This document shows, piece by piece, positions 47,966 to 60,853 of a DNA stretch of 64,000 bases. A program made the translations under genes and the position numbers. The notes under the pieces are model-generated. The model saw nothing but the letters and a program-made list of their open reading frames with translations. It searched no databases and was not told the origin of the DNA. Position 1 is the first letter of the stretch. Every line of letters starts with the position of its first letter. Origin of the DNA: Ignavibacteriota bacterium (GTDB taxonomy: Bacteria; Bacteroidota; Ignavibacteria; Ignavibacteriales; Melioribacteraceae); the NCBI GenBank assembly GCA_013112585.1, contig JABFGH010000008.1, positions 62,001 to 126,000 on the forward strand. Reading direction: 5' to 3'.

Positions 47966-48080
47966 TTATTTAATAATTTGCCGCCGGATAATTGAATGTA
48001 AAAAATTATTTTTTTGACAAGGTAAGGATGTCTTATTATCGTTTTTTTTATTATATTGGAGTAGAAAAAAATAATTGATT

Positions 48081-49424
48081 ATGCCTATATCTGAAGAAAA
48101 AATAGTAGCTCTAAAACATGCTAACGAAATACTGAACAGTATTGTTGAAGGCGTTTTTACAGTTGATAAAAATTTAAAGATCACATATTTGAATACAGCC
48201 GCCGAGAGAATTACGGGGGTTAAACAGGGTGATGCAATCGGTCACTACTGTTTTGAAACACTTCGCTCAAACTTATGTGAAATAGCATGTCCGATTAAAC
48301 ACTCAATTAAAACGGGCGAGAATGTTGTAAATAATCAAGTAAAAATTTTACGCCCCGACGGTAAGGAAATTCCCGTAAGCATTAATGCCTCGGTATTAAA
48401 AGACGAGCAGGGAAATATCATCGGAGGCGTTGAAACATTCCGAGATTTTTCGGCTATTGAATCATTAAAAAAAGAGATTGAACAGAAATACACTTATGAA
48501 GATATCATATCAAAAAATCATAAAATTTTAGAAATATTTAGTATCCTCCCAAACATTGCCGAAAGTGAAAGCACGGTATTAGTCCAGGGTCAAAGCGGAT
48601 CCGGTAAAGAACTGTTTGCCCGTGCAATTCATAATTTAAGTTATAGAAGCAAAGGACCCTTTGTTGCAGTAAACTGCGGTGCACTTCCCGATAACCTTTT
48701 GGAATCGGAATTATTCGGATATAAAAAAGGCGCCTTTACCGATGCAAAAAAAGATAAACCCGGAAGATTTGAATTAGCACGCGGCGGAACAATTTTTCTT
48801 GATGAAGTTGAAAGCCTCTCCCCTTCAACACAAGTAAAACTGCTGCGCGTTCTGCAGGAAAAAGAATTTGAACCACTCGGTTCCACTGCACCTGTAAAAT
48901 CGGATGTAAGGATTATTTCTGCAACAAAAACATGCTTAAACCAGTTGGTTAAAAAAGATAAATTCAGAGATGATTTATTTTTCCGGTTGAATATTGTTCG
49001 TATTGAACTTCCGCCTCTTATTCATCGAAGAGATGATATACCGCTTTTGATAAATCACTTTATCGAAAAATTTGGTCATAAAATGCATAAGTATATTACC
49101 GGCGTTTCGGGCGATGTGCTGGAACTGCTGATGAATTATGATTATAGCGGAAATGTTCGTGAACTTGAAAATATTATTGAACACGCATTTGTAATGTGTC
49201 AAGAAGAAATTATTCAGCTTAAACATTTACCCCCTGAAATAAGTCTGCCGCAAGAATCTAAAAATGAAGTTAAAGAAATAACTAACCCCCTTGAAACTAC
49301 CGAACGTAAAACAATTAAAGCCACACTCGAAAAACATAATTGGAATAAGGTTGAAGCAGCAAAAGCATTAAACTTGCACCGAAGTACACTTTGGCGCAAA
49401 ATGAAAAAGCTCGGCTTAACCTAA
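48081..49424 (+). CDS. PAS-domain sigma-54-dependent activator
   Basis: 447 residues. A PAS domain (residues ~13-125: ILNSIVEGVFTVDKNLKITYLNTAAERITG) holds a cysteine set (Cys57, Cys66, Cys70 in CFETLRSNLCEIACPIK) of the kind seen in anaerobic redox-sensing PAS activators, where an iron-sulfur cluster or redox switch is suspected. The AAA+ domain has Walker A GQSGSGKE (170-177), the loop GAFTDA (217-222, a known variant of GAFTGA), Walker B GTIFLDEVE and arginine finger DDLFFRLNIVRI. The C-terminal Fis helix-turn-helix reads NWNKVEAAKALNLHRSTLWRKMKKLG. I use ATG 48081 and not the TTG at 48075. It lies directly upstream of the cytochrome operon. Confidence 0.92.
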   Translation: MPISEEKIVALKHANEILNSIVEGVFTVDKNLKITYLNTAAERITGVKQGDAIGHYCFETLRSNLCEIACPIKHSIKTGENVVNNQVKILRPDGKEIPVSINASVLKDEQGNIIGGVETFRDFSAIESLKKEIEQKYTYEDIISKNHKILEIFSILPNIAESESTVLVQGQSGSGKELFARAIHNLSYRSKGPFVAVNCGALPDNLLESELFGYKKGAFTDAKKDKPGRFELARGGTIFLDEVESLSPSTQVKLLRVLQEKEFEPLGSTAPVKSDVRIISATKTCLNQLVKKDKFRDDLFFRLNIVRIELPPLIHRRDDIPLLINHFIEKFGHKMHKYITGVSGDVLELLMNYDYSGNVRELENIIEHAFVMCQEEIIQLKHLPPEISLPQESKNEVKEITNPLETTERKTIKATLEKHNWNKVEAAKALNLHRSTLWRKMKKLGLT

Positions 49425-49547: not shown

Positions 49548-49562
49548 TGGCTTAGCCTTTGT
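49548..49562 (+). promoter_or_regulatory. Candidate sigma-54 (-24/-12) promoter
   Basis: TGGCTTAGCCTTTGT fits TGGCAC-N5-TTGC in spacing and at the GG, but the -12 element is TTGT instead of TTGC. The expected start of transcription (~49574) is about 20 bases before the ATG at 49595. The preceding gene encodes a sigma-54 activator. Confidence 0.55.
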
Positions 49563-49594
49563 CTATACACAAACAATTAAAATAATTTGGAAGA

Positions 49595-49921
49595 ATGAAA
49601 AAGATAATAATACCGGCATTTGGAAGTAGAATTTCACCTCGATTAGATTTTGCTAAGTACATCCACATAATAGAAGTAGATGGTAAAAAAATAATTAAGC
49701 GGGATCTTATTCAGATAATTACGCAAAACAGACTCAATAGAATTCAGCAATTAATAAAACTTTCGCCCGATGTAATAATTTGTGATGGACTTACGGAAAT
49801 GTGTTTAAATGAATTTAAAAAGGCAAAAGTTGAAGTGGTACCCTGGGTAAACGGTGAAATTGAAGAAATAATCAAAATGTATTTGGAAGGTAAATTAGAA
49901 AGTAGATTAAAAATAAAATAA
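49595..49921 (+). CDS. NifX/NafY-type dinitrogenase iron-molybdenum cofactor family protein
   Basis: 108 residues: KIIIPAFGSRISPRLDFAKYIHIIEVDGKKI at the start and LIKLSPDVIICDGLTEMCLNEFKKAKVEVVPWVNGEIEEII in the middle match the stand-alone cofactor-binding fold (NifX/MTH1175-like). These small proteins bind FeMo-co precursors or other metal clusters. No nitrogenase genes are in the window, so the likely job is with the electron-transfer operon it opens. GGAAGA lies before the ATG. Confidence 0.8.
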   Translation: MKKIIIPAFGSRISPRLDFAKYIHIIEVDGKKIIKRDLIQIITQNRLNRIQQLIKLSPDVIICDGLTEMCLNEFKKAKVEVVPWVNGEIEEIIKMYLEGKLESRLKIK

Positions 49922-49953: not shown

Positions 49954-50853
49954 ATGTCGCAAAACCGCAGAGATTTTTTAAAGACTGTTGCCGCCATTGG
50001 CACAAGCGCAGGTGCTTTATCTGCTCTATCGCCAAACAAGGTAAAGGCAAAATCACCGGAAAACCTTTCTGAAGAGAGAATGGGAGTTCTTGTTGATGCA
50101 ACTGTATGTATCGGCTGCAGAAAGTGTGAATGGGCATGCCGCGGCGCTCATGATATCGAGAATGGTAACATTCAAGATTATGCTGATGAAAAGGTTTTTG
50201 AAACAAACCGCCGACCCGATTACGATAATTTGACAATCGTAAACCGATATGAAAGCAGTGACGAAAAATTAAGCAATGTAAAATTGCAATGTATGCACTG
50301 CGATCATCCTGCATGCGTTTCGGCTTGTATTGTTGGCGCAATAAGCAAAAAGAAAAACGGTTCCGTAGTTTGGGATACAGATATGTGCATCGGCTGCCGA
50401 TACTGCATGGTAGCTTGCCCGTTTCAAATTCCCGCTTTTGAATATCACAAAGCATTAGACCCTAAAATTGTTAAATGCGATTTTTGCGATGAAAGAACGA
50501 TGGAAGGTAAACTGCCCGCATGTACTGCAATTTGCCCCGTTGAAGCGCTAACATACGGCAAGCGTGAAGATCTTCTTATCGAAGCAAAACGAAGATTTAA
50601 AAATAACCCTGATAGATATTATCAGCATATCTTCGGTGAACACGAGATTGGCGGAACATCATGGCTTTACATTGCCGATAAAGATTTAGCTGGAACTGTG
50701 TTCCCGAAACTGGACAATAGAACTGCCCCCGGTGTATCAGAATCAATTCAGCATGGACTGTTTGCATACTTTGTACCTCCGGTTGCCGTTTATGCATTGC
50801 TTGGCGGTATAATGTGGCTTACTAAAGACAAGAAAAAAACGGAGGGAAAATAA
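49954..50853 (+). CDS. HybA-like 4Fe-4S ferredoxin subunit with Tat signal
   Basis: 299 residues. The N-terminus has a Tat motif (NRRDFLKTVAAIG) and hydrophobic region. Four [4Fe-4S] clusters are suggested: CIGCRKCEWAC (~res 49), CMHCDHPACVSAC, CIGCRYCMVACPF and CDFCDERTMEGKLPACTAICP. A C-terminal helix (FAYFVPPVAVYALLGGIMWL) anchors it in the membrane, facing the periplasm. It transfers electrons between a periplasmic partner and the NrfD-type quinol subunit encoded next. Its stop overlaps that start by one base. Confidence 0.9.
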   Translation: MSQNRRDFLKTVAAIGTSAGALSALSPNKVKAKSPENLSEERMGVLVDATVCIGCRKCEWACRGAHDIENGNIQDYADEKVFETNRRPDYDNLTIVNRYESSDEKLSNVKLQCMHCDHPACVSACIVGAISKKKNGSVVWDTDMCIGCRYCMVACPFQIPAFEYHKALDPKIVKCDFCDERTMEGKLPACTAICPVEALTYGKREDLLIEAKRRFKNNPDRYYQHIFGEHEIGGTSWLYIADKDLAGTVFPKLDNRTAPGVSESIQHGLFAYFVPPVAVYALLGGIMWLTKDKKKTEGK

Positions 50854-52097
50854 TGGAACATCCTCATAAACCAACTCCGCTTACAAAAAAGTTTTTTACT
50901 CCATGGGTAATTGTTTTAGCGGCAATTGCTCTTAACGGTATCCTTTTCTTGTTAGCAAGATTTGTATTCGGGATAGGCGCGGTAACAAATTTAGATAATC
51001 AATACCCCTGGGGAATTTGGATTGGATTAGATGTAGCTGCCGGAGTTGCATTGGCTGCCGGCGGATTTACAACTGCGGCAATAGGGCACATTATGCATAA
51101 CGATAAATATGAAAGCATAATAAGACCTGCACTGCTAACAGCGCTGCTAGGCTATACTTTTGTTGCTGTCAGCGTAATGGTCGATTTAGGAAGATGGTAT
51201 TACATTTGGCATCCGATAATAATGTGGAACGGCAACTCTGCCCTTTTTGAAGTAGGCATTTGTGTAATGATTTATTTAACCGTTCTTTACATAGAATTTT
51301 TGCCTATTGTAACCGAAAGATTTATAGGTAGAGTAAACTTACCGGGCATACTCAGCCGGTTCAATAAACTTGTAAACACCTTTCTTATAAAACTTGATAA
51401 AGGTTTAGATAAAACAATGTTCATCTTTATTATTGCTGGTGTTGTTTTATCATGTCTCCATCAATCATCATTGGGAACATTAATGATAATTGCCGGACCC
51501 AAAATGCACCCGCTCTGGCAAACACCTATACTGCCGTTATTGTTTCTCCTCTCGGCAATAGCAGTAGGCTTTCCCATGGTTATTATGGAATCACTCACGG
51601 CTTCACGGTCATTTGGACTTAAGCCTGAAACTGAAGTGCTAAACAGTTTATCGCGCTTTATTGCACCGCTGTTAGGAATTTACCTGATTGCTAAAATTGG
51701 CGATATGGTAATAAGAGAAACATTCGTTTACTTATCAGAACTGAATTCAACAACAATTTTATTTGGAATTGAAGTAGTAATAGGAGTGATTGTTCCGCTC
51801 CGAATGTTTATGTCGCCTGCCGTGCGGGAATCAACAAAAGGCTTATATATTGCTTCAATGCTTGTAATATTTGGAATTGTGATGAACCGTTTTAACAATT
51901 TTATTACGGCATATAATCCACCTTATGCTTTAGATTCTTATATGCCTTCAATTGGAGAAATCTCTGTGACCCTTGGCTTTATTGCAATTGAGATACTTCT
52001 ATACAGATTATTTGTAAAGATATTCCCTGTTATCAGTATCCCTGCAAAAAAATCACTTTCAAAAACCAAATTTGCAATAAGGGGGGCGGCAAAATGA
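50853..52097 (+). CDS. NrfD/HybB-family quinol-interacting membrane subunit
   Basis: 414 residues with nine or ten membrane helices: WVIVLAAIALNGILFLLARFVFGIG, QYPWGIWIGLDVAAGVALAAGGFTTAAIGHIM (the family's conserved start), LGYTFVAVSVMVDLGRWYYIWHPIIMWNGNSALFEVGICVMIYLTVLYIEFLP, then VLSCLHQSSLGTLMIIAGPKMHPLW. The SCLHQSSLG stretch is typical of HybB/DmsC-type quinone sites. It exchanges electrons with menaquinone. No hydrogenase or molybdopterin subunit is next to it; a 13-heme cytochrome follows with 4-base overlap (ATGA). Confidence 0.9.
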   Translation: MEHPHKPTPLTKKFFTPWVIVLAAIALNGILFLLARFVFGIGAVTNLDNQYPWGIWIGLDVAAGVALAAGGFTTAAIGHIMHNDKYESIIRPALLTALLGYTFVAVSVMVDLGRWYYIWHPIIMWNGNSALFEVGICVMIYLTVLYIEFLPIVTERFIGRVNLPGILSRFNKLVNTFLIKLDKGLDKTMFIFIIAGVVLSCLHQSSLGTLMIIAGPKMHPLWQTPILPLLFLLSAIAVGFPMVIMESLTASRSFGLKPETEVLNSLSRFIAPLLGIYLIAKIGDMVIRETFVYLSELNSTTILFGIEVVIGVIVPLRMFMSPAVRESTKGLYIASMLVIFGIVMNRFNNFITAYNPPYALDSYMPSIGEISVTLGFIAIEILLYRLFVKIFPVISIPAKKSLSKTKFAIRGAAK

Positions 52098-53206
52098 AAG
52101 TAACTATTAAAATTCTACTTCTATTATTTATTTGCAGCCTATCAGTTTCGGCACAAATACAAAGTTTGGCTAAACATGCTCAAATGAATATCGATTGTAA
52201 AAGCTGCCATGTTTGCGATACGCCTACAAAAGCTGATCCATGTTTAATACTTTGTCCGCGCTACAAACTTGAAGTTGTACGCCACTCACCCGATGAAGGA
52301 CCGGATCATATAATAATTGATAAAATTAAAGTTGAAAAAGATTTATATAAGCCTGTTCAATTCTCTCACAGGCTCCATTCCGAAATGTCTTTAATGTCCG
52401 GCGGATGTTCCTCCTGCCATCATTTTAATCCTCCCGGCAACATTGTTGAATGCAGTGAATGTCACGAGCCGAATAGAGCACGCACAGATTTAAGTAAACC
52501 CGATCTTAAAGGTGCATACCATCGCCAGTGCATGGATTGCCACTATAGCTGGGATGCAAAAGTTGAATGTGCTGATTGCCATGAATTAAATAGTTCGGAG
52601 ACAGAGAGTGTGAGACTTGAAGCGATGCCTTCAAAAAGTCATCCTAAAGTAAAAGAGCCCGAAAAGATAGTTTATGAAACCGGCAGCGATGAAGGCGACT
52701 TAGTTACTTTCTTCCACAATGAACATATTTCACTTTTTAATTTGGAATGTACAGACTGCCACAGCAATGAAAGCTGTGCACAATGCCATAGCCAGAAAGA
52801 AAAAGTGGAAAGACCAATTTTGGCTGATGCACATGAAAACTGCTCGGCGTGCCATGATACTGAAGATGATTGTACAAGCTGCCACATGGAAATGGAACGA
52901 GCACCGTTTAATCATTTTAAGTCTTCCGGCTTCAGCCTTAAAAAATATCATTCGGATGTTTCCTGTATCTCATGCCACACTGCAGGCGGTGGTTTTACCG
53001 GATTAAATAAAAACTGTATTAGTTGTCATAATTTTGAAGACGAAGATTTTGATCATGGAGTAACCGGTTTAACACTGGATGACATTCATATTGAAAACGA
53101 ATGTGCAGACTGCCATACCGAAACAGTTTATTCCAAGGTTAGCTGCGATACTTGCCATGATGAAGATATAACATACCCTGCTTCTTTGCCGGGTACAAAA
53201 AAATAG
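52094..53206 (+). CDS. Thirteen-heme c-type cytochrome
   Basis: 370 residues with a signal peptide (ILLLLFICSLSVSAQ). I count 13 CXXCH motifs: CKSCH, CSSCH, CSECH, CMDCH, CADCH, CTDCH, CAQCH, CSACH, CTSCH, CISCH, CISCH, CADCH and CDTCH. Many histidines between them can be sixth ligands (e.g. VQFSHRLHSEM). It belongs to the cytochrome c3/c7-like multiheme group. As the third gene after the HybA/HybB pair, it is the probable periplasmic electron acceptor of this quinol-oxidising module. No transmembrane anchor is seen after the signal peptide. Confidence 0.9.
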   Translation: MKVTIKILLLLFICSLSVSAQIQSLAKHAQMNIDCKSCHVCDTPTKADPCLILCPRYKLEVVRHSPDEGPDHIIIDKIKVEKDLYKPVQFSHRLHSEMSLMSGGCSSCHHFNPPGNIVECSECHEPNRARTDLSKPDLKGAYHRQCMDCHYSWDAKVECADCHELNSSETESVRLEAMPSKSHPKVKEPEKIVYETGSDEGDLVTFFHNEHISLFNLECTDCHSNESCAQCHSQKEKVERPILADAHENCSACHDTEDDCTSCHMEMERAPFNHFKSSGFSLKKYHSDVSCISCHTAGGGFTGLNKNCISCHNFEDEDFDHGVTGLTLDDIHIENECADCHTETVYSKVSCDTCHDEDITYPASLPGTKK

Positions 53207-53217
53207 TTGAGAAAAGT

Positions 53218-55089
53218 ATGCTTAAAAAAATAGGTTTCAAATTAGCATTGATTGTAAGTTTAACAACAATAATTATTATTGGAATATACGCTTACATCAG
53301 CATTCAATCACAAAGAGAAGTTCTGCTGGAAGAGGTTCACCGTCATGTAGATCAGCTAAGTGAAACTATAAAAATGAGCATACACGATGATATGATGGCT
53401 AATAACCGCGGGCAAATTCAAAATATTATAAATATAATTGGCGAAGAAGATTGTTTTAAACAAGTTAGGCTGCTGAATAAAGAAGGAACAATAACCTACT
53501 CTAATAGTCCCAATGATATTGGTAGAATGGTTGACAAAAAAGCAGAAGCATGTTATAAATGCCATGCTGAAGATAAGCCGCTTGAAAAACTGCCGATAAA
53601 GGAAAGAACCAGGATATATAAACTCCATCCGGATTCTGCAAGGGTAATGGGAATTATAAACCCCATCGCAAATGAAAGGTCTTGCTGGGAATCGGGATGT
53701 CATGTTCATGATTCCGATCAAACAGTGCTTGGGGTATTGGACTTAACAGTTTGCTTAAAACAAGTTGATACTGAAATTAAAAAAAGTGAAATAAAACTTT
53801 TACTTTTTTCATTAATAGCTATTGCCGCAATTGGAATTATCATTGGTATTTTTATTAGAAGATGGGTGGATAAGCCTGTAAAGGAATTGCTAAAAGCTAC
53901 TAATAATGTTGCCGTTGGTAATTGGAATTATAAAATTGATACCAAAAGCAAAGATGAACTCGGTACTCTTTCTAATTCATTTAACAATATGACGCAGAAA
54001 TTAACCGAGATGAAACTTCAATTAGTTCAGTCGGATAAATTAGCATCACTTGGTAAACTTGCCGCAGGGGTTGCACATGAAATAAATAATCCTTTAACCG
54101 GGGTTCTTACCTACAGCAGCTACTTACTGAAAAGATCAAAAGGCAATCCCGAGTTTGAAGCTGACCTAAAAGTAATAGTAAGGGAAACTAAACGCAGCAG
54201 AGAAATTGTAAAAGGTCTGCTTGATTTTGCACGTCAATCAGCTCCCCAAAAAAACAGAGCATCTATTAACGACATCGTTGAAAACTCAATAACAGTGGTA
54301 AGTAATGCACTTAGTCTGAATAAAATAAAACTTATTAAAGATTTTGAAAAAGAACTTCCATTAATCACCGTAGATGCAAGTCAAATTCAGCAGACATTTA
54401 CAAACTTGATTGTTAACGCAATTGATGCAATAGGAAAATCCGGCGGAGAATTAAGGATTGAAACGAAACAAATAAGCTTATCGGCTTATGGTGTTAAGCA
54501 GATTAAAAATGCAGTATGCCCGAACGGACACAGCCTGATGGACCCTGATCATAAAATTGATGGGTCGGCATCCTTAAAAGTTAAAATAAAATACAATTCC
54601 AATGAAGGCTATCTGCACATGGACCCGGTTTACGGCAGGCAGGCACATCATTATGGAATTCCCCTGCTGAAAAACAAACCTGTTGAATTATCATGCCCTG
54701 AATGTAATATTTCTCTAAAGGCTAAAAATAAAAACTGCCCCGAATGCGGCACAACAGTTTACCAAATTGAAATACCCGGAAAAGGGTTTATAGAAGGATG
54801 CTTAAAATACGGCGGTACATGGCAAAAGTGGGAATATGCCGATTCTGAAGGCGAAGTACGTTACATTCAAATTAAGTTTAAGGATACCGGAGAAGGTATT
54901 CATGAAGATAATTTAAGTAAAATATTTGATCCCTTTTATTCCACAAAAGGTCAAAAAGGAACCGGACTCGGACTTTCAGTTATTTGGGGGATCATTGATA
55001 AACACAACGGATTTATTTCTGTTGATAGTAAAATTGGAGAGGGAACTGAATTTACAATTAGGCTGCCTCTCGATTCAAAAATCAGGTGA
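53218..55089 (+). CDS. Heme-motif sensor histidine kinase with zinc-ribbon-like insert
   Basis: 623 residues. Membrane helices at ~8-28 and ~192-214 enclose a periplasmic domain with a CXXCH motif (Cys112-His116, CYKCH) and a second heme-like motif CX4CH (Cys156-His162, CWESGCH). A HAMP linker (~215-265) is followed by the H-box (His287 in LAAGVAHEINNPLTG), N-box (Asn400, LIVNAIDA), G1 DTGEG (556-560) and G2 GTGLGL (581-586). Between N-box and G1, residues ~416-549 are an insert with CPNGH (434-438), CPEC (493-496) and CPEC (507-510), like a rubredoxin/zinc-ribbon domain. It probably senses redox state or a gas through c-type heme and phosphorylates the regulators that follow. Confidence 0.88.
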   Translation: MLKKIGFKLALIVSLTTIIIIGIYAYISIQSQREVLLEEVHRHVDQLSETIKMSIHDDMMANNRGQIQNIINIIGEEDCFKQVRLLNKEGTITYSNSPNDIGRMVDKKAEACYKCHAEDKPLEKLPIKERTRIYKLHPDSARVMGIINPIANERSCWESGCHVHDSDQTVLGVLDLTVCLKQVDTEIKKSEIKLLLFSLIAIAAIGIIIGIFIRRWVDKPVKELLKATNNVAVGNWNYKIDTKSKDELGTLSNSFNNMTQKLTEMKLQLVQSDKLASLGKLAAGVAHEINNPLTGVLTYSSYLLKRSKGNPEFEADLKVIVRETKRSREIVKGLLDFARQSAPQKNRASINDIVENSITVVSNALSLNKIKLIKDFEKELPLITVDASQIQQTFTNLIVNAIDAIGKSGGELRIETKQISLSAYGVKQIKNAVCPNGHSLMDPDHKIDGSASLKVKIKYNSNEGYLHMDPVYGRQAHHYGIPLLKNKPVELSCPECNISLKAKNKNCPECGTTVYQIEIPGKGFIEGCLKYGGTWQKWEYADSEGEVRYIQIKFKDTGEGIHEDNLSKIFDPFYSTKGQKGTGLGLSVIWGIIDKHNGFISVDSKIGEGTEFTIRLPLDSKIR

Positions 55090-55096
55090 AAGAAAA

Positions 55097-55888
55097 ATGG
55101 ATGGAAAAAATATTTTAGTGATTGACGACGAACAATTAATTATTGATTCGGTAGAAAAAATAGTTTCGCTTGAAGATATAACGGTTGATTATGCCTTAAC
55201 GGCAGAAACAGCATTAGAGAAAATGAAAACCGGAAACTACAATCTAATTTTAACAGATATTATGATGCCTGAAATGGACGGATTTCAGTTACTTGAAAAA
55301 ATGAGATTGACTAAAATTGATATCCCTGTAATAATGACAACAGGATACTCTACCGGTGAAAATGCTATACGTGCCCTGCATGATGGTGCTTTGGCATTTA
55401 TTCCAAAACCGTTTGATATTGATGAACTAATAAGTATTGTTAAACGGGGAATAAAATTTAGTGAACTTCAAAATTCAATAAAAGATGATCAGAGTGATAC
55501 AATAGCTTACGTGCCATGCCCCTCGGCTTACTATCGATTGGGATATACAAGCTGGATTAGGTTTGACGGCGAAGGTATAGTTGCCATTGGCATTACCGAT
55601 TGTTTCTTAAATACAATTACTAAAATTAAAGAGATTGAGTTTTTACATAGCGACTTAAAAGTTTTTCAAGGAACACCATACGCAAAGTTTATTGATGAAA
55701 ATGAATTACCGAATCCCGTGCTATCGCCTTTAAGCGGTACAATAATAAAACAAAATGAACAGCTTAAAACGAATATTCCTTTAGTTGAAAAAGACCCCTA
55801 CTTTGATGGTTGGATATATAAAGTACTTCCCGATGATTTAGATAATGAACTTAAAAAATTAACTCCATGCAGTTCGGATAGATTATAA
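55097..55888 (+). CDS. Response regulator with C-terminal GcvH-like domain
   Basis: 263 residues from the ATG at 55097 (AAGAAA upstream); the frame is open earlier but overlaps the kinase. The receiver (1-125) is complete: acidic pair DDE near 10-12, phospho-acceptor Asp54 in ILTDIMMPEM, Lys104 in IPKPFD. Residues ~145-255 resemble the H protein of the glycine cleavage system (YTSWIRFDGEGIVAIGITDCFLNTITKIKEIEFLHSDLKVFQGTPYAKF, then VLSPLSGTIIKQNEQL). The lipoyl-attachment lysine position carries no lysine (ENELPNPVLSPLSG), so lipoylation is unlikely there. There is no DNA-binding domain. It is most likely a partner of the heme kinase. Confidence 0.85.
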   Translation: MDGKNILVIDDEQLIIDSVEKIVSLEDITVDYALTAETALEKMKTGNYNLILTDIMMPEMDGFQLLEKMRLTKIDIPVIMTTGYSTGENAIRALHDGALAFIPKPFDIDELISIVKRGIKFSELQNSIKDDQSDTIAYVPCPSAYYRLGYTSWIRFDGEGIVAIGITDCFLNTITKIKEIEFLHSDLKVFQGTPYAKFIDENELPNPVLSPLSGTIIKQNEQLKTNIPLVEKDPYFDGWIYKVLPDDLDNELKKLTPCSSDRL

Positions 55889-55933
55889 AATGAAATTAAA
55901 AAATAAAATAATAAACATTTACCGGAGACCACG

Positions 55934-57076
55934 ATGGCACTATTTATAGTTGCGCTAATCTTATTTGTAATATTAGATGTTTTAATTCGATACTTTATAA
56001 AGCAGCAAAAAGAAAAAAAATTAAAACGAGAAAGAGCTGCTGTGCTTGAAGAAAGTATAAATCTTGATTTTAGCAAAGAAGCAAAAACATTAAAACGTGC
56101 AGAAATTGACAACCCAAAAGCAAAAATTTTATGCGTTGATGATGAAGCGGTTATTTTGGATAGCTTCAGAAAAATTTTAGTTCTTGAAGGTTACTCAATT
56201 GACACAGTTGAAAGCGGCGGTGAAGCATTGTCACTCATAAAATCAAATCATTATGATTTTGTTTTTACTGATTTGAAAATGCCTGAAATGAGCGGCGTAG
56301 ATGTAACCAAAGCAGTAAAGCACTTGCGCCCCGATATTGACGTGATGATTATTACCGGGTTTGCTTCAGTAGATACAGCTGTAGAATGTATGAAATATGG
56401 TGCTATGGATTATGTAGAAAAACCTTTCACCGAAGATGAACTGATTGAATTTACAAACAAAGCCTTAATCAAGCGTAAAGATAATATTCAGAAGCAGCTT
56501 AAGCCGCGCGTTCATATATCTCATTTTGATGAAGATACATCAATAGGCGATAACGAATTTTCTATACCCGGCGGTGTGTTCATTTCTGAAGGTCACGCAT
56601 GGGCTTCCGTTGATCAAGACGGCACTGTTAAAATTGGTATTGATGATTTTGCAAAAAAGATCATCGGTAAAATTGATGATATTGATTTTCCGAATCTAGG
56701 AATGAAAGTGGAAAAAGGAAATCCTCTTTTCAGCATAAAGCAAAATAGAAAAAGTATTACTTTCAATGCTCCTATTTCAGGAACTGTTACTGCTGTAAAC
56801 GATAAGCTGACAGAAGACCTGGATGTTTTGGAATATTCGTCTTATGAAAAAAATTGGTTCTGCGCAATTGATGCCGATAAATTGGATGAAGAACTGCCTA
56901 AACTAAAAATTGGTAAATCGGCTGTTAACTTTTACCAAAGAGATATTGATGACTGCAGAGAAACTTTTGCTAAGCTATTAGAAGACACCGGAAAAGAAAA
57001 CATGTATGTTGGAGCAATGGAAAAACTAGAAGAGAAAGATTGGAATACTGTAGCAGCAACTTTTTTTGATAGATAA
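55934..57076 (+). CDS. Membrane-anchored response regulator with C-terminal GcvH-like domain
   Basis: 380 residues. An N-terminal helix (ALFIVALILFVILDVLIRYFI) and a charged linker precede a receiver (62-180): VDDEAVIL, Asp113 in FTDLKMPEM, Lys163 in VEKPFT. A GcvH-like domain at ~205-330 follows (EGHAWASVDQDGTVKIGIDDFAKKIIGKIDDIDF; then SIKQNRKSITFNAPISGTVTAVNDKL). The ESVK-type motif is replaced by IKQNRKSITFNAP, so a lysine is near but not exactly at the lipoyl site. A ~45-residue helical tail ends the protein. It is a paralogue of the preceding regulator and is tethered to the inner membrane, so it may act on a membrane complex and not on DNA. Confidence 0.85.
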   Translation: MALFIVALILFVILDVLIRYFIKQQKEKKLKRERAAVLEESINLDFSKEAKTLKRAEIDNPKAKILCVDDEAVILDSFRKILVLEGYSIDTVESGGEALSLIKSNHYDFVFTDLKMPEMSGVDVTKAVKHLRPDIDVMIITGFASVDTAVECMKYGAMDYVEKPFTEDELIEFTNKALIKRKDNIQKQLKPRVHISHFDEDTSIGDNEFSIPGGVFISEGHAWASVDQDGTVKIGIDDFAKKIIGKIDDIDFPNLGMKVEKGNPLFSIKQNRKSITFNAPISGTVTAVNDKLTEDLDVLEYSSYEKNWFCAIDADKLDEELPKLKIGKSAVNFYQRDIDDCRETFAKLLEDTGKENMYVGAMEKLEEKDWNTVAATFFDR

Positions 57077-57381: not shown

Positions 57382-59478
57382 ATGAAAAAACTACAATCTC
57401 AGACATCCCTCTCAATTTTATTATTTATTATTTTCCTTGTAGTTCCAAATAAAAATATATTTGCTCAGAACGAAGATTGCATGGATTGTCATTACGACAA
57501 TACCCTCACCATGTTCAAGGGAGAAAAAGAAATTTCACTCTTTTTAAATGAAGAAGTATTTCTGATGTCAACCCATGCTGACATGCTTTGTATTGACTGT
57601 CATGAAGGCTTTGACCCTTACGAAGAACCCCATATGGAAGGTGAGAATATCAGCTACGTAAACTGCGGCACCTGCCATGAAGATGCTTATGATGAGCATA
57701 AAGAAAGTATTCATGGTATTTCTATGGAACTTGGTTCTGATGAAGCTGCAAAATGCTGGGATTGCCACGGGGCGCACGGTATTCAATATGTAAGTGAAGC
57801 ATCTAGTTTGGTTCACCCTAAAAATTTAGCTGTAACCTGTGCTAAGTGCCATGATAATCCTGAAATTGTACAGAAGTATGGATTGAGCGCTTCCAAACCG
57901 GGAATGTCCTACTCAAATTCAGTACATGGTAAGCTGGTAATGGAAGGTGATACTGATGCTGCAAGCTGTGTTGATTGCCACGGAGTTCACGATATCAAAA
58001 ATAAAATGCAGCCGGGTTCTAGAATTTCAACTTTTAATGTTCCCGAAATGTGCGGTGAATGTCATCAGGATGCCTCAGAAAATTACATGGAATCAATCCA
58101 TTGGATACGAGCAAAAAAAGGTGCTAAGTTTTCACCTGTTTGCAATGACTGCCATAGTGAGCACAGCATACAGCAAGTTTCTACCGAGTCGAATAAAATT
58201 GATCAAAACATTCTTCAAGAAAAAATTTGTGTAAGCTGTCATCAAGATCCGAAATTAATTCAAAAATATGATTTATCGGAAGAGCAAACTATTCAGTATC
58301 AAGATAGTTATCACGGTCTTGCCGTAATGCGCGGCAGTACAAAAGCTGCAAGATGCATCGACTGTCATAATGACCACAAAATTTTACCTTCGTCGCATCC
58401 GGAATCATCTGTGAGTGAAGAAAATGTAACTGCTACCTGTCAAAAATGTCACGCGAGGGCTACACCGGTTTTTTCAAAAAGCTACTCACATATTTCTGCA
58501 AACGAAGCTTCACGTAAAGTTGAATCGTTTGTTAGCTCGCTTTACTTCTGGCTGATTATTTCAGTTATCGGGGGAATGGCAATTCATAACCTTATTATTT
58601 TTGTTGCTGAAATTAAGCGGAAAAGAAAGAAAGGTGCTAATGTTATCTCAATACCGCGTTTCACAAAAAATGAAGTAATTCAGCATATTTTGCTTTTCAC
58701 CTCATTTATAATTTTAGCAATTACCGGCTTTGCTCTTAGATATCCTCAAAGCTGGTGGTCCGCGGGGCTGCTGGATCTCGGTATGACTGAAACTGTGAGA
58801 ATGAATATTCATAGAGTTGCCGCCGTTGTTATGATGACTCTCGGTTTATATCATATAATTTATTTGTTAGTAACTGAGCGCGGAAGAGATGTACTAAAAA
58901 ACTTACTGCCTACTTTTTATGATATAAAAAATGTTAGTGAAAACATGCTTTATTATTTAGGCTTTAGTAAAACTAAACCGGAATTTGATAAATACGATTA
59001 TATTGAAAAAGCTGAATACTGGGCATTAATTTGGGGTACACTTATTATGGGTATTACAGGTCTATTCCTCTGGTTCCCTACCCTGGTTGGCGAATGGGCG
59101 CCTACCTGGTTAATTAAAGTGAGTGAGATAATTCACTTTTACGAAGCAATACTTGCATCACTTGCAATTGTAGTATGGCATTGGTTCTTCGTAATTTTCC
59201 ATCCAAAAGAATACCCGATGAGTTTCACATGGATTGACGGTAAAATGTCTTTAGAAACTTACCGACATCATCATGAAAGACATTTCAAAAGAGTATTAAA
59301 GGAATGGACTGAATTTGATGCAGGCAACTTGGATGAAAAGAAAGTATCATACACTACAAAGCTATTTGCAAAAACACTGAAGGAAAACGGTGTTGAAGCA
59401 AAAGATGTATTTGCTAACGAACTAAGCAAAGATGCAAAACTGCGTGCCTGGTTTGAGGAGAATGTAAAACAAAACTAA
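57382..59478 (+). CDS. CbcL-like fusion of multiheme cytochrome c and cytochrome b
   Basis: 698 residues. A signal peptide (LLFIIFLVVPNKNIFAQ) precedes a periplasmic domain to about residue 370 with 11 CXXCH motifs (CMDCH, CIDCH, CGTCH, CWDCH, CAKCH, CVDCH, CGECH, CNDCH, CVSCH, CIDCH, CQKCH). The C-terminal half has membrane helices of the di-heme cytochrome b/b561 type with candidate heme histidines (IQHILLFTSFIILAITG; MNIHRVAAVVMMTLGLYHIIYLL; EIIHFYEAILASLAIVVWHWFFVIFHP). The layout is that of CbcL in Geobacter, which oxidises menaquinol and passes electrons to periplasmic carriers in Fe(III) respiration. It is likely transcribed alone; a terminator follows at 59501. Confidence 0.88.
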   Translation: MKKLQSQTSLSILLFIIFLVVPNKNIFAQNEDCMDCHYDNTLTMFKGEKEISLFLNEEVFLMSTHADMLCIDCHEGFDPYEEPHMEGENISYVNCGTCHEDAYDEHKESIHGISMELGSDEAAKCWDCHGAHGIQYVSEASSLVHPKNLAVTCAKCHDNPEIVQKYGLSASKPGMSYSNSVHGKLVMEGDTDAASCVDCHGVHDIKNKMQPGSRISTFNVPEMCGECHQDASENYMESIHWIRAKKGAKFSPVCNDCHSEHSIQQVSTESNKIDQNILQEKICVSCHQDPKLIQKYDLSEEQTIQYQDSYHGLAVMRGSTKAARCIDCHNDHKILPSSHPESSVSEENVTATCQKCHARATPVFSKSYSHISANEASRKVESFVSSLYFWLIISVIGGMAIHNLIIFVAEIKRKRKKGANVISIPRFTKNEVIQHILLFTSFIILAITGFALRYPQSWWSAGLLDLGMTETVRMNIHRVAAVVMMTLGLYHIIYLLVTERGRDVLKNLLPTFYDIKNVSENMLYYLGFSKTKPEFDKYDYIEKAEYWALIWGTLIMGITGLFLWFPTLVGEWAPTWLIKVSEIIHFYEAILASLAIVVWHWFFVIFHPKEYPMSFTWIDGKMSLETYRHHHERHFKRVLKEWTEFDAGNLDEKKVSYTTKLFAKTLKENGVEAKDVFANELSKDAKLRAWFEENVKQN

Positions 59479-59528: not shown

Positions 59529-59551
59529 CTGTTTAAAAAGATTTAGAAAAA

Positions 59552-59675
59552 CAAATCCCAAAAAACAAATCCCAAATGACAAATCCCAAATGACAAATCC
59601 CAAAAAACAAATCCCAAATGACAAATCCCAAAAAACAAATCCCAAAAAACAAATCCCAAATGACAAATTCCAAAC
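59552..59675. repeat. 14-bp tandem repeat array
   Basis: Eight 14-bp units in a row, each CAAATCCCAAAAAA (type A) or CAAATCCCAAATGA (type B), in the order A B B A B A A B, then a partial CAAATTCCAAACC. The first full unit begins at 59552. The two variants differ by three bases at the end. The long open frames over this stretch are artefacts of the repeat. Confidence 0.9.
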
Positions 59676-60169: not shown

Positions 60170-60853
60170 TTATTTAACTCGTGCTTTCTCTAAAGCTTTT
60201 GCAACCGCAAGCTGAATTCCTGAGGTGGACATAGTAGCCTTCGAGATTACATCTACATCAATTGATTGCCCTTTAACAATAGCAGCAGGAGTTTTTTCTT
60301 TAGCTTCGTTTACAGGCTTGCCGTATTTTTTATGGTCTGTACTTTGATCATATTTTGAAACTTTAATATCAGTTATAGCATTCTCGCTAACAGTTACTTC
60401 AACTTCAATTTCGCCGCTGTGTTTTTTATCGCTTCTGCCAACCGATGCACCTTTATAAGTACCGGCTTTATATTTATTAAGAGATGCTTTTTCGAGAGCT
60501 TTTGCAACGGCTAAATTAAGTCCGATTGAGGACATTGTTGCGCCGGAAATAACATCAACATCTACGGAATTTTTCTTTGTCATGTTAGCAGGCACTTCCT
60601 CTTCTGCTTTTACAACAGCCTTGCCGTATTTTTTATGATCAACACTTTGGTCATATTTTAAAACTTTTATTTCTTCAATACCTTTCTCATTAACTTTTAC
60701 TTCAACTTCAATTTCACCGCTATGTTTTTTATCGCTTCTACCTACTGCACTTCCTTTGTATGTACCGGGCTTGTATTGTGCAAAGGCATCGGAACTTATA
60801 ATAAGCAACACTGAAAAAAATGCAGCAGAAAATAATTTGAAATACTTATGCAT
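60170..60853 (-). CDS. Secreted protein with two FMN-binding domains
   Basis: 227 residues. A signal peptide (LFSAAFFSVLLIISSDAFAQ) and two near-identical ~95-residue domains (27-125 and 130-226), each starting YKxGTYKGxxVGRSDKKHSGEIEVEV. The flavin-attachment-like motif is VISGATMSS in copy one, but VISKATMST in copy two, where Gly is Lys. FMN_bind proteins can carry covalently bound FMN on a threonine and work in periplasmic electron transfer. The duplication seems recent, since the sequences stay alike. It is on the opposite strand to the cytochrome genes and has its own terminator. Confidence 0.85.
   Translation of the reverse strand: MHKYFKLFSAAFFSVLLIISSDAFAQYKPGTYKGSAVGRSDKKHSGEIEVEVKVNEKGIEEIKVLKYDQSVDHKKYGKAVVKAEEEVPANMTKKNSVDVDVISGATMSSIGLNLAVAKALEKASLNKYKAGTYKGASVGRSDKKHSGEIEVEVTVSENAITDIKVSKYDQSTDHKKYGKPVNEAKEKTPAAIVKGQSIDVDVISKATMSTSGIQLAVAKALEKARVK

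Follow-up and report, generated by a model that had tools for sequence, protein, structure and literature searches.

Receiver proteins with GcvH-like domains lacking the lipoyl lysine are linked to a HybA/NrfD/multiheme cytochrome module in Ignavibacteria

What might a two-component system control when its response regulators carry a domain like that of the glycine cleavage H protein (GcvH) in place of a DNA-binding part? Two adjacent genes, here called RR1 and RR2, raise this question in a stretch of 64,000 nucleotides from an Ignavibacteriota bacterium (contig JABFGH010000008.1, positions 62,001 to 126,000; "the window" below). The host genome is 4.9 Mb, and the nearest named loci are those of Melioribacter, Stygiobacter and other Ignavibacteria. 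A first-pass annotation, made from the sequence by itself, had proposed that phosphorylation of the two proteins controls a GcvH-like adaptor at an electron-transfer complex, not transcription. We therefore consider below the proteins themselves, their neighbours, and relatives in which the receiver is missing or has decayed.

Two receivers joined to H-protein folds

RR1 (55097..55888; genes are on the plus strand of the window unless stated otherwise) encodes a soluble protein of 263 amino acids with a receiver at residues 6-115, a GcvH-like domain at about 139-255 and a C-terminal PCSSDR tail. RR2 (55934..57076) encodes 380 amino acids, with a membrane helix at about residues 2-20, a receiver at 65-172, a GcvH-like domain at about 209-332 and a helical C-terminal tail. 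Its first 20 or so residues are hydrophobic and are followed by a K/R-rich stretch, which fits an N-out/C-in topology, and the N-terminal helix extends beyond its membrane part to residue 43. The Pfam families Response_reg (E-values of 5.7e-27 for RR1 and 5.9e-30 for RR2) and GCV_H (2.2e-16 and 2.5e-19) match both proteins, and the same search detected no DNA-binding family in either. Both have a receiver fold with the acidic pocket, phospho-accepting aspartate, Thr/Ser and lysine in place (D10/D11/D54/T82/K104 in RR1 and D69/D70/D113/T141/K163 in RR2). The first-pass description of two consecutive receiver and GcvH-like proteins with complete phosphorylation residues, no DNA-binding part and a membrane helix at the N-terminus of the second, together with its gene boundaries, thus holds.

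The receiver residues are very nearly invariant among relatives. In the 82 RR2 relatives, D113, T141 and K163 are present in 82/82 and D69/D70 in 81/81; in the 77 RR1 relatives D54 is found in 75/75, K104 in 77/77 and T82 in 71/75, the remaining ones having Ser. The receiver and the GcvH-like domain are both retained in 48/48 and 52/52 aligned relatives. RR1 relatives mostly have C-C-H-C at the positions of C141, C195, H206 and C258 (51/78 rows), and the window protein has CYNC there (C141, Y195, N206, C258), lacking the second Cys and the His as do three others; these positions could be those of a metal or redox site that the window protein has lost.

AlphaFold models of the two proteins (mean pLDDT 92.6 for RR1 and 86.6 for RR2) match solved H proteins, the RR1 model superimposing on 1htp with a Z score of 20.2 and an rmsd of 1.6 A over 122 residues and the RR2 model giving Foldseek TMt values mostly of 0.83-0.91, so the C-terminal domains do have the hybrid barrel fold that the first-pass annotation had assigned to them. 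The pTM of 0.89 for RR1 is compatible with fixed packing of its two domains, and that of 0.58 for RR2 leaves its domain arrangement undefined. In the alignment, the position that the lipoyl lysine occupies in the genome's true GcvH (EAVKTVS, L001) holds E in RR1 and R in RR2, in agreement with the earlier observation that this lysine is missing from the first protein and its motif altered in the second. Among relatives this column holds K in 0/77 RR1 and 16/82 RR2 proteins and the ExVK context has been lost, and we rejected a role as lipoyl carrier on this column. Replacement of the canonical GcvH was likewise rejected, as each of ten genomes checked retains a separate and much stronger GcvH match. 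It has also to be considered that a lysine at a shifted position bears lipoate or some other thiol cofactor, in the manner of LbpA in the sHdr pathway. The H-protein fold is in favour of this, as is a K found there or beside it in some RR2 proteins, and we judge it most improbable given the unconserved hairpin lysine and the true GcvH in the same genomes. Since the phosphorylation residues are near-invariant while the lipoyl lysine is not conserved, selection has retained the receiver and the fold and let the cofactor site go.

The earlier description of the pair as twins fared less well. In a tree of GcvH domains, RR2 groups with one set of receiver-less membrane-anchored proteins (TM-GcvH, below) and RR1 forms its own clade beside that of GcvH (the domain is short and the root arbitrary). 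An origin by tandem duplication looks unlikely on this basis and was rejected, as the two domains fall in different groups.

An apparent respiratory operon and its conservation

RR1 and RR2 are the last genes of an apparent operon in the order NifX-like, HybA, NrfD, multiheme cytochrome c, kinase, RR1, RR2. The first encodes a small NifX/NifB-like protein (49595..49921; Nitro_FeMo-Co at 25.7 bits, with a family cut-off of 26.3), and it is followed by genes for a HybA/HmcB-like tail-anchored iron-sulfur protein with a twin-arginine signal (49954..50853), an NrfD/HybB/HmcC-like quinol-interacting membrane protein (50853..52097) and a periplasmic multiheme cytochrome c with 13 CxxCH motifs, counted by eye in the translation (52094..53206). 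The presence of these last three in one operon identifies a module of the HybA-HybB/Hmc type; because scores do not reach the equivalog cut-offs that NCBIfam sets for HmcB/HmcC and HybA/HybB, it is best described as homologous to Hmc and Hyd-2 and as neither of them. In the sensor histidine kinase (53218..55089), heme-c-type motifs, CxxCH and Cx4CH, are conserved in a periplasmic domain, which is followed by HAMP, HisKA and HATPase_c. Its HATPase_c is interrupted by a Cys-rich, zinc-ribbon-like insertion (CPxxH..., CPxC...CPxCG; residues ~430-545, window 54500-54860) that is conserved in 65 aligned relatives and absent from the distant L149 kinase. Downstream lies a gene for a multiheme cytochrome c fused to a cytochrome b561-type domain (57382..59478), which is 3' of the set in many Melioribacteraceae-like genomes, though not in all. 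Between it and a gene on the minus strand for a protein with two FMN_bind stretches (60170-60853), which adjoins the electron-transfer region, is an AT-rich tandem repeat (59547-59674; period 14/42, about 9 copies) that yields a spurious repetitive open reading frame.

We scanned GTDB genomes with a pattern taken from the GcvH domain alone, and hence blind to neighbouring genes, and obtained 80 loci. Nearly all of those long enough carry HybA, NrfD, the cytochrome, the kinase, RR1 and RR2 in that order on one strand. The first-pass annotation had suggested looking for genomes in which the pair co-occurs with HybA/NrfD and the heme-type kinase. At the testable loci the kinase was found in 63/63, NrfD in 55/55 and HybA in 54/55, and the cytochrome in 52/55. 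Far from being found mainly elsewhere, the regulators essentially always adjoin these genes. RR1 passed a strict upstream-gap rule in 62/73 loci, and in the 11 exceptions it is still just upstream, its stop-to-stop frame overlapping that of RR2. Of 79 genomes of the same family, 50 have RR2 together with this NrfD, 23 have neither and 6 are discordant, so that 73 agree (Fisher p = 9e-14, not corrected for phylogeny).

The whole set recurs across many anaerobes, being found in Ignavibacteria, Calditrichota, and Gemmatimonadetes and Kiritimatiellaeota MAGs. Strong RR2 matches occur in 14/40 genomes in the phylum of a Calditrichaceae MAG, 4/150 in that of a Gemmatimonadetes MAG and 2/145 in that of a Kiritimatiellaeota MAG. 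All six genes are present in a different order in L149, from a distant genome of the same phylum, and a search of plasmids matched only generic receivers. Some loci have a second, divergent RR2-like protein (~47-50% identical to RR2; L091:2727, L107:2358, L140:2476, G013:C37:3462-4556), which lies upstream of a different HybA/NrfD pair and ahead of the kinase-RR1-RR2 set.

Linkage of this kind is also compatible with an assembly factor, or with a regulator whose target lies elsewhere. RR1 and RR2 might be regulated assembly or quality-control factors that fold, insert or cofactor-load HybA, NrfD and the cytochromes, phosphorylation timing this work to redox conditions, and would then not be lasting subunits. 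The gene neighbourhood is the same under this proposal, a NifX-like protein is encoded in the same operon, and HybA, which can be without a Tat signal in the receiver-less operons described below, would there need partners for export. We think it unlikely on balance: the family searches gave no match to a known redox-enzyme maturation family, and RR2 and most of its receiver-less relatives consistently have a membrane anchor in which an acidic residue is conserved, which better fits a resident partner than a transient soluble chaperone.

Phosphorylated RR1 and RR2 might instead sequester or activate a transcription factor, gene expression then being the real output. A PAS-type sigma-54 activator without a receiver (48075..49424), likely the transcriptional regulator of the operon, is encoded upstream in the window, and homologues are present in L098, L114, L115 and L139. 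A weak sigma-54 (-24/-12)-like site in the window (49548..49563, plus strand) has a score of 7, a value common in shuffled sequence, and is listed because better sites, scoring 8-10, lie upstream of hybA in L098, L114, L115, L118 and L139, at 373-401 bp in four of these and 574 bp in L114; all five have the NifX-like gene and four the adjacent activator. In addition, the partner of such a kinase in receiver-less operons is a sigma-54 regulator, with a receiver of its own in the one scanned. What counts against this reading, to which we give rather little credence, is that a sigma-54 gene is absent directly upstream of the RR pair at most loci, whereas the link to HybA and NrfD is near-universal.

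Relatives without a receiver and a decayed receiver

Some RR2 homologues lack the receiver and resemble RR2 at the membrane helix, the GcvH domain and the C-terminal motif. These receiver-less TM-GcvH proteins are encoded within 3.5 kb of HybA or NrfD matches in 32/32 cases, which makes it probable that the GcvH part goes with the complex and that the receiver is an addition to it. In five such operons, followed over a longer stretch, NrfD is succeeded or adjoined by a second protein that is soluble and Cys-rich, and after it come a heme-motif kinase and then a sigma-54 regulator, which is of the NtrC type with a receiver in the one scanned. Two of three soluble companions tested matched Pfam GCV_H (those in L146 and L147, with no Pfam match in L148). 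The companions (L147:11508-12353, L146:4787-5572, L148:12083-12832, and those in L151 and L153) start with a conserved motif resembling CIWxxxGxxxYKLCDxxFxCxxCxF, perhaps a metal site, ahead of the GcvH-like part. From gene content, the membrane-anchored GcvH-like partner appears to be the constant element, and the receiver to sit either on it or on the transcription factor; of all the evidence, these operons argue most strongly for a GcvH-like domain that works for the complex. They also bear on the idea that the heme-type kinase uses RR1 and RR2 as phosphate sinks or as a buffering pair, with the GcvH domain doing no more than anchoring them near it. Two receivers per kinase and the lack of a DNA-binding output agree with such a role, which nevertheless seems improbable to us, since the receiver-less relatives keep the HybA/NrfD link though they are unable to act as a sink.

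In a genome that is 99% complete (G349), HybA, NrfD, the cytochrome and RR2 are kept together at one locus (L150), and the genome contains no RR1 and no kinase-sensor ortholog that we could find, the best kinase match having an E-value of 6e-8 and 22% identity. RR2 at this locus (L150:748-1845, minus strand) is a pseudo-receiver protein in which DDE has become EKD and the phospho-accepting Asp has become Gly, with loss of the acidic pocket. This single genome on a long branch is suggestive of a receiver that decayed where the kinase is missing while the anchored GcvH part stayed with the complex.

A possible switch on a quinol-linked complex and its relation to known systems

Our favoured reading, to which we assign a probability of about one half from these sequence comparisons, is that the GcvH-like proteins RR1 and RR2 act, unlipoylated and under the control of phosphorylation, as subunits or docking adaptors on the cytosolic face of the quinol-linked HybA/NrfD/multiheme cytochrome complex. 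The membrane kinase, with its heme-c-type motifs, would sense periplasmic redox state or electron load and phosphorylate the receivers of both proteins, and this would alter the position that the GcvH-like domain takes up on the complex. RR2 would be held beside NrfD by its membrane helix, and the soluble RR1 could bind the complex or leave it. The phospho-switch would then gate complex assembly or electron flow, with transcription of the operon left to the separate sigma-54 activator. Contact would have to be made through NrfD or the C-terminal tail of HybA, because the iron-sulfur protein is predicted to be periplasmic. The first-pass proposal of an adaptor at the complex stood up to each computational test applied to it and is supported in part, by the gene linkage, the receiver-less homologues and the receiver decay; what we infer is that binding is physical and cytosolic, that the kinase binds heme, and which way phosphorylation acts and to what effect. 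The recurrence of the whole set across many anaerobes suggests that the respiratory complex itself, in addition to its genes, is under the control of the kinase. A broader statement, that the two-component output is direct post-translational control of the quinol complex, the kinase phosphorylating dedicated pseudo-lipoyl subunits and a membrane-anchored GcvH-like subunit having either gained the receiver by insertion or lost it, we advance more tentatively, as possible with the odds somewhat against it.

If true, related redox kinases switch either genes, in the operons with NtrC-type regulators, or the complex itself, in those with receiver-GcvH proteins, so that nature would provide two ways of controlling a single respiratory module for comparison. 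The HybA/NrfD/multiheme modules, which are widespread and thought to feed reduction in the periplasm or of metals, would gain two more components, at present concealed by the annotations "response regulator" and "glycine cleavage H protein".

RR1 and RR2 resemble GcvH (PF01597) in fold (Z ~20) and in the core motifs HxW and G-[IV]-x-[DT]-[DE]-[FY], but they lack the lipoyl lysine, are fused to receivers (and in RR2 to a membrane helix) and are linked to HybA/NrfD. LbpA of the sHdr pathway is a GcvH-like protein devoted to a redox complex and not to glycine cleavage, and it works via bound lipoate; RR1 and RR2, in contrast, have lost the lipoyl site, gained a phospho-receiver and lie among HybA/NrfD genes. 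Response regulators with non-DNA-binding outputs, in which the receiver drives protein-protein contact, are a known kind.

The Hmc operon of Desulfovibrio vulgaris has a similar HmcB/HmcC-like pair, multiheme cytochrome and adjacent regulators, rrf1/rrf2, described as regulators of hmc expression (PMC10924467); it differs in having HmcD-F as well, and the accessible text of that source does not mention GcvH-like proteins. The same text describes a module of tail-anchored FeS protein, HybB-like quinol oxidase and octaheme cytochrome, which shares the HybA-NrfD-CytC core with the window and for which it reports no conserved flanking genes (PMC10924467), whereas in the loci studied here it is consistently accompanied by the kinase and by two receiver-GcvH genes. 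In Melioribacter roseus, of the same organism group as the window, the NrfCD cluster Mros1571-1572 has been proposed to be a quinol:acceptor reductase feeding periplasmic multiheme cytochromes, perhaps for Fe(III) reduction (PMC3534657); it is possibly the counterpart of the window operon, though the accessible part of that report describes no regulators for it. In agreement with the first-pass statement that no characterised case was known, a literature search with limited cover of subscription papers found no described receiver-GcvH protein or GcvH-type output. The combination is thus new as far as we have searched, while its parts are of known kinds, and it is conserved well beyond chance.
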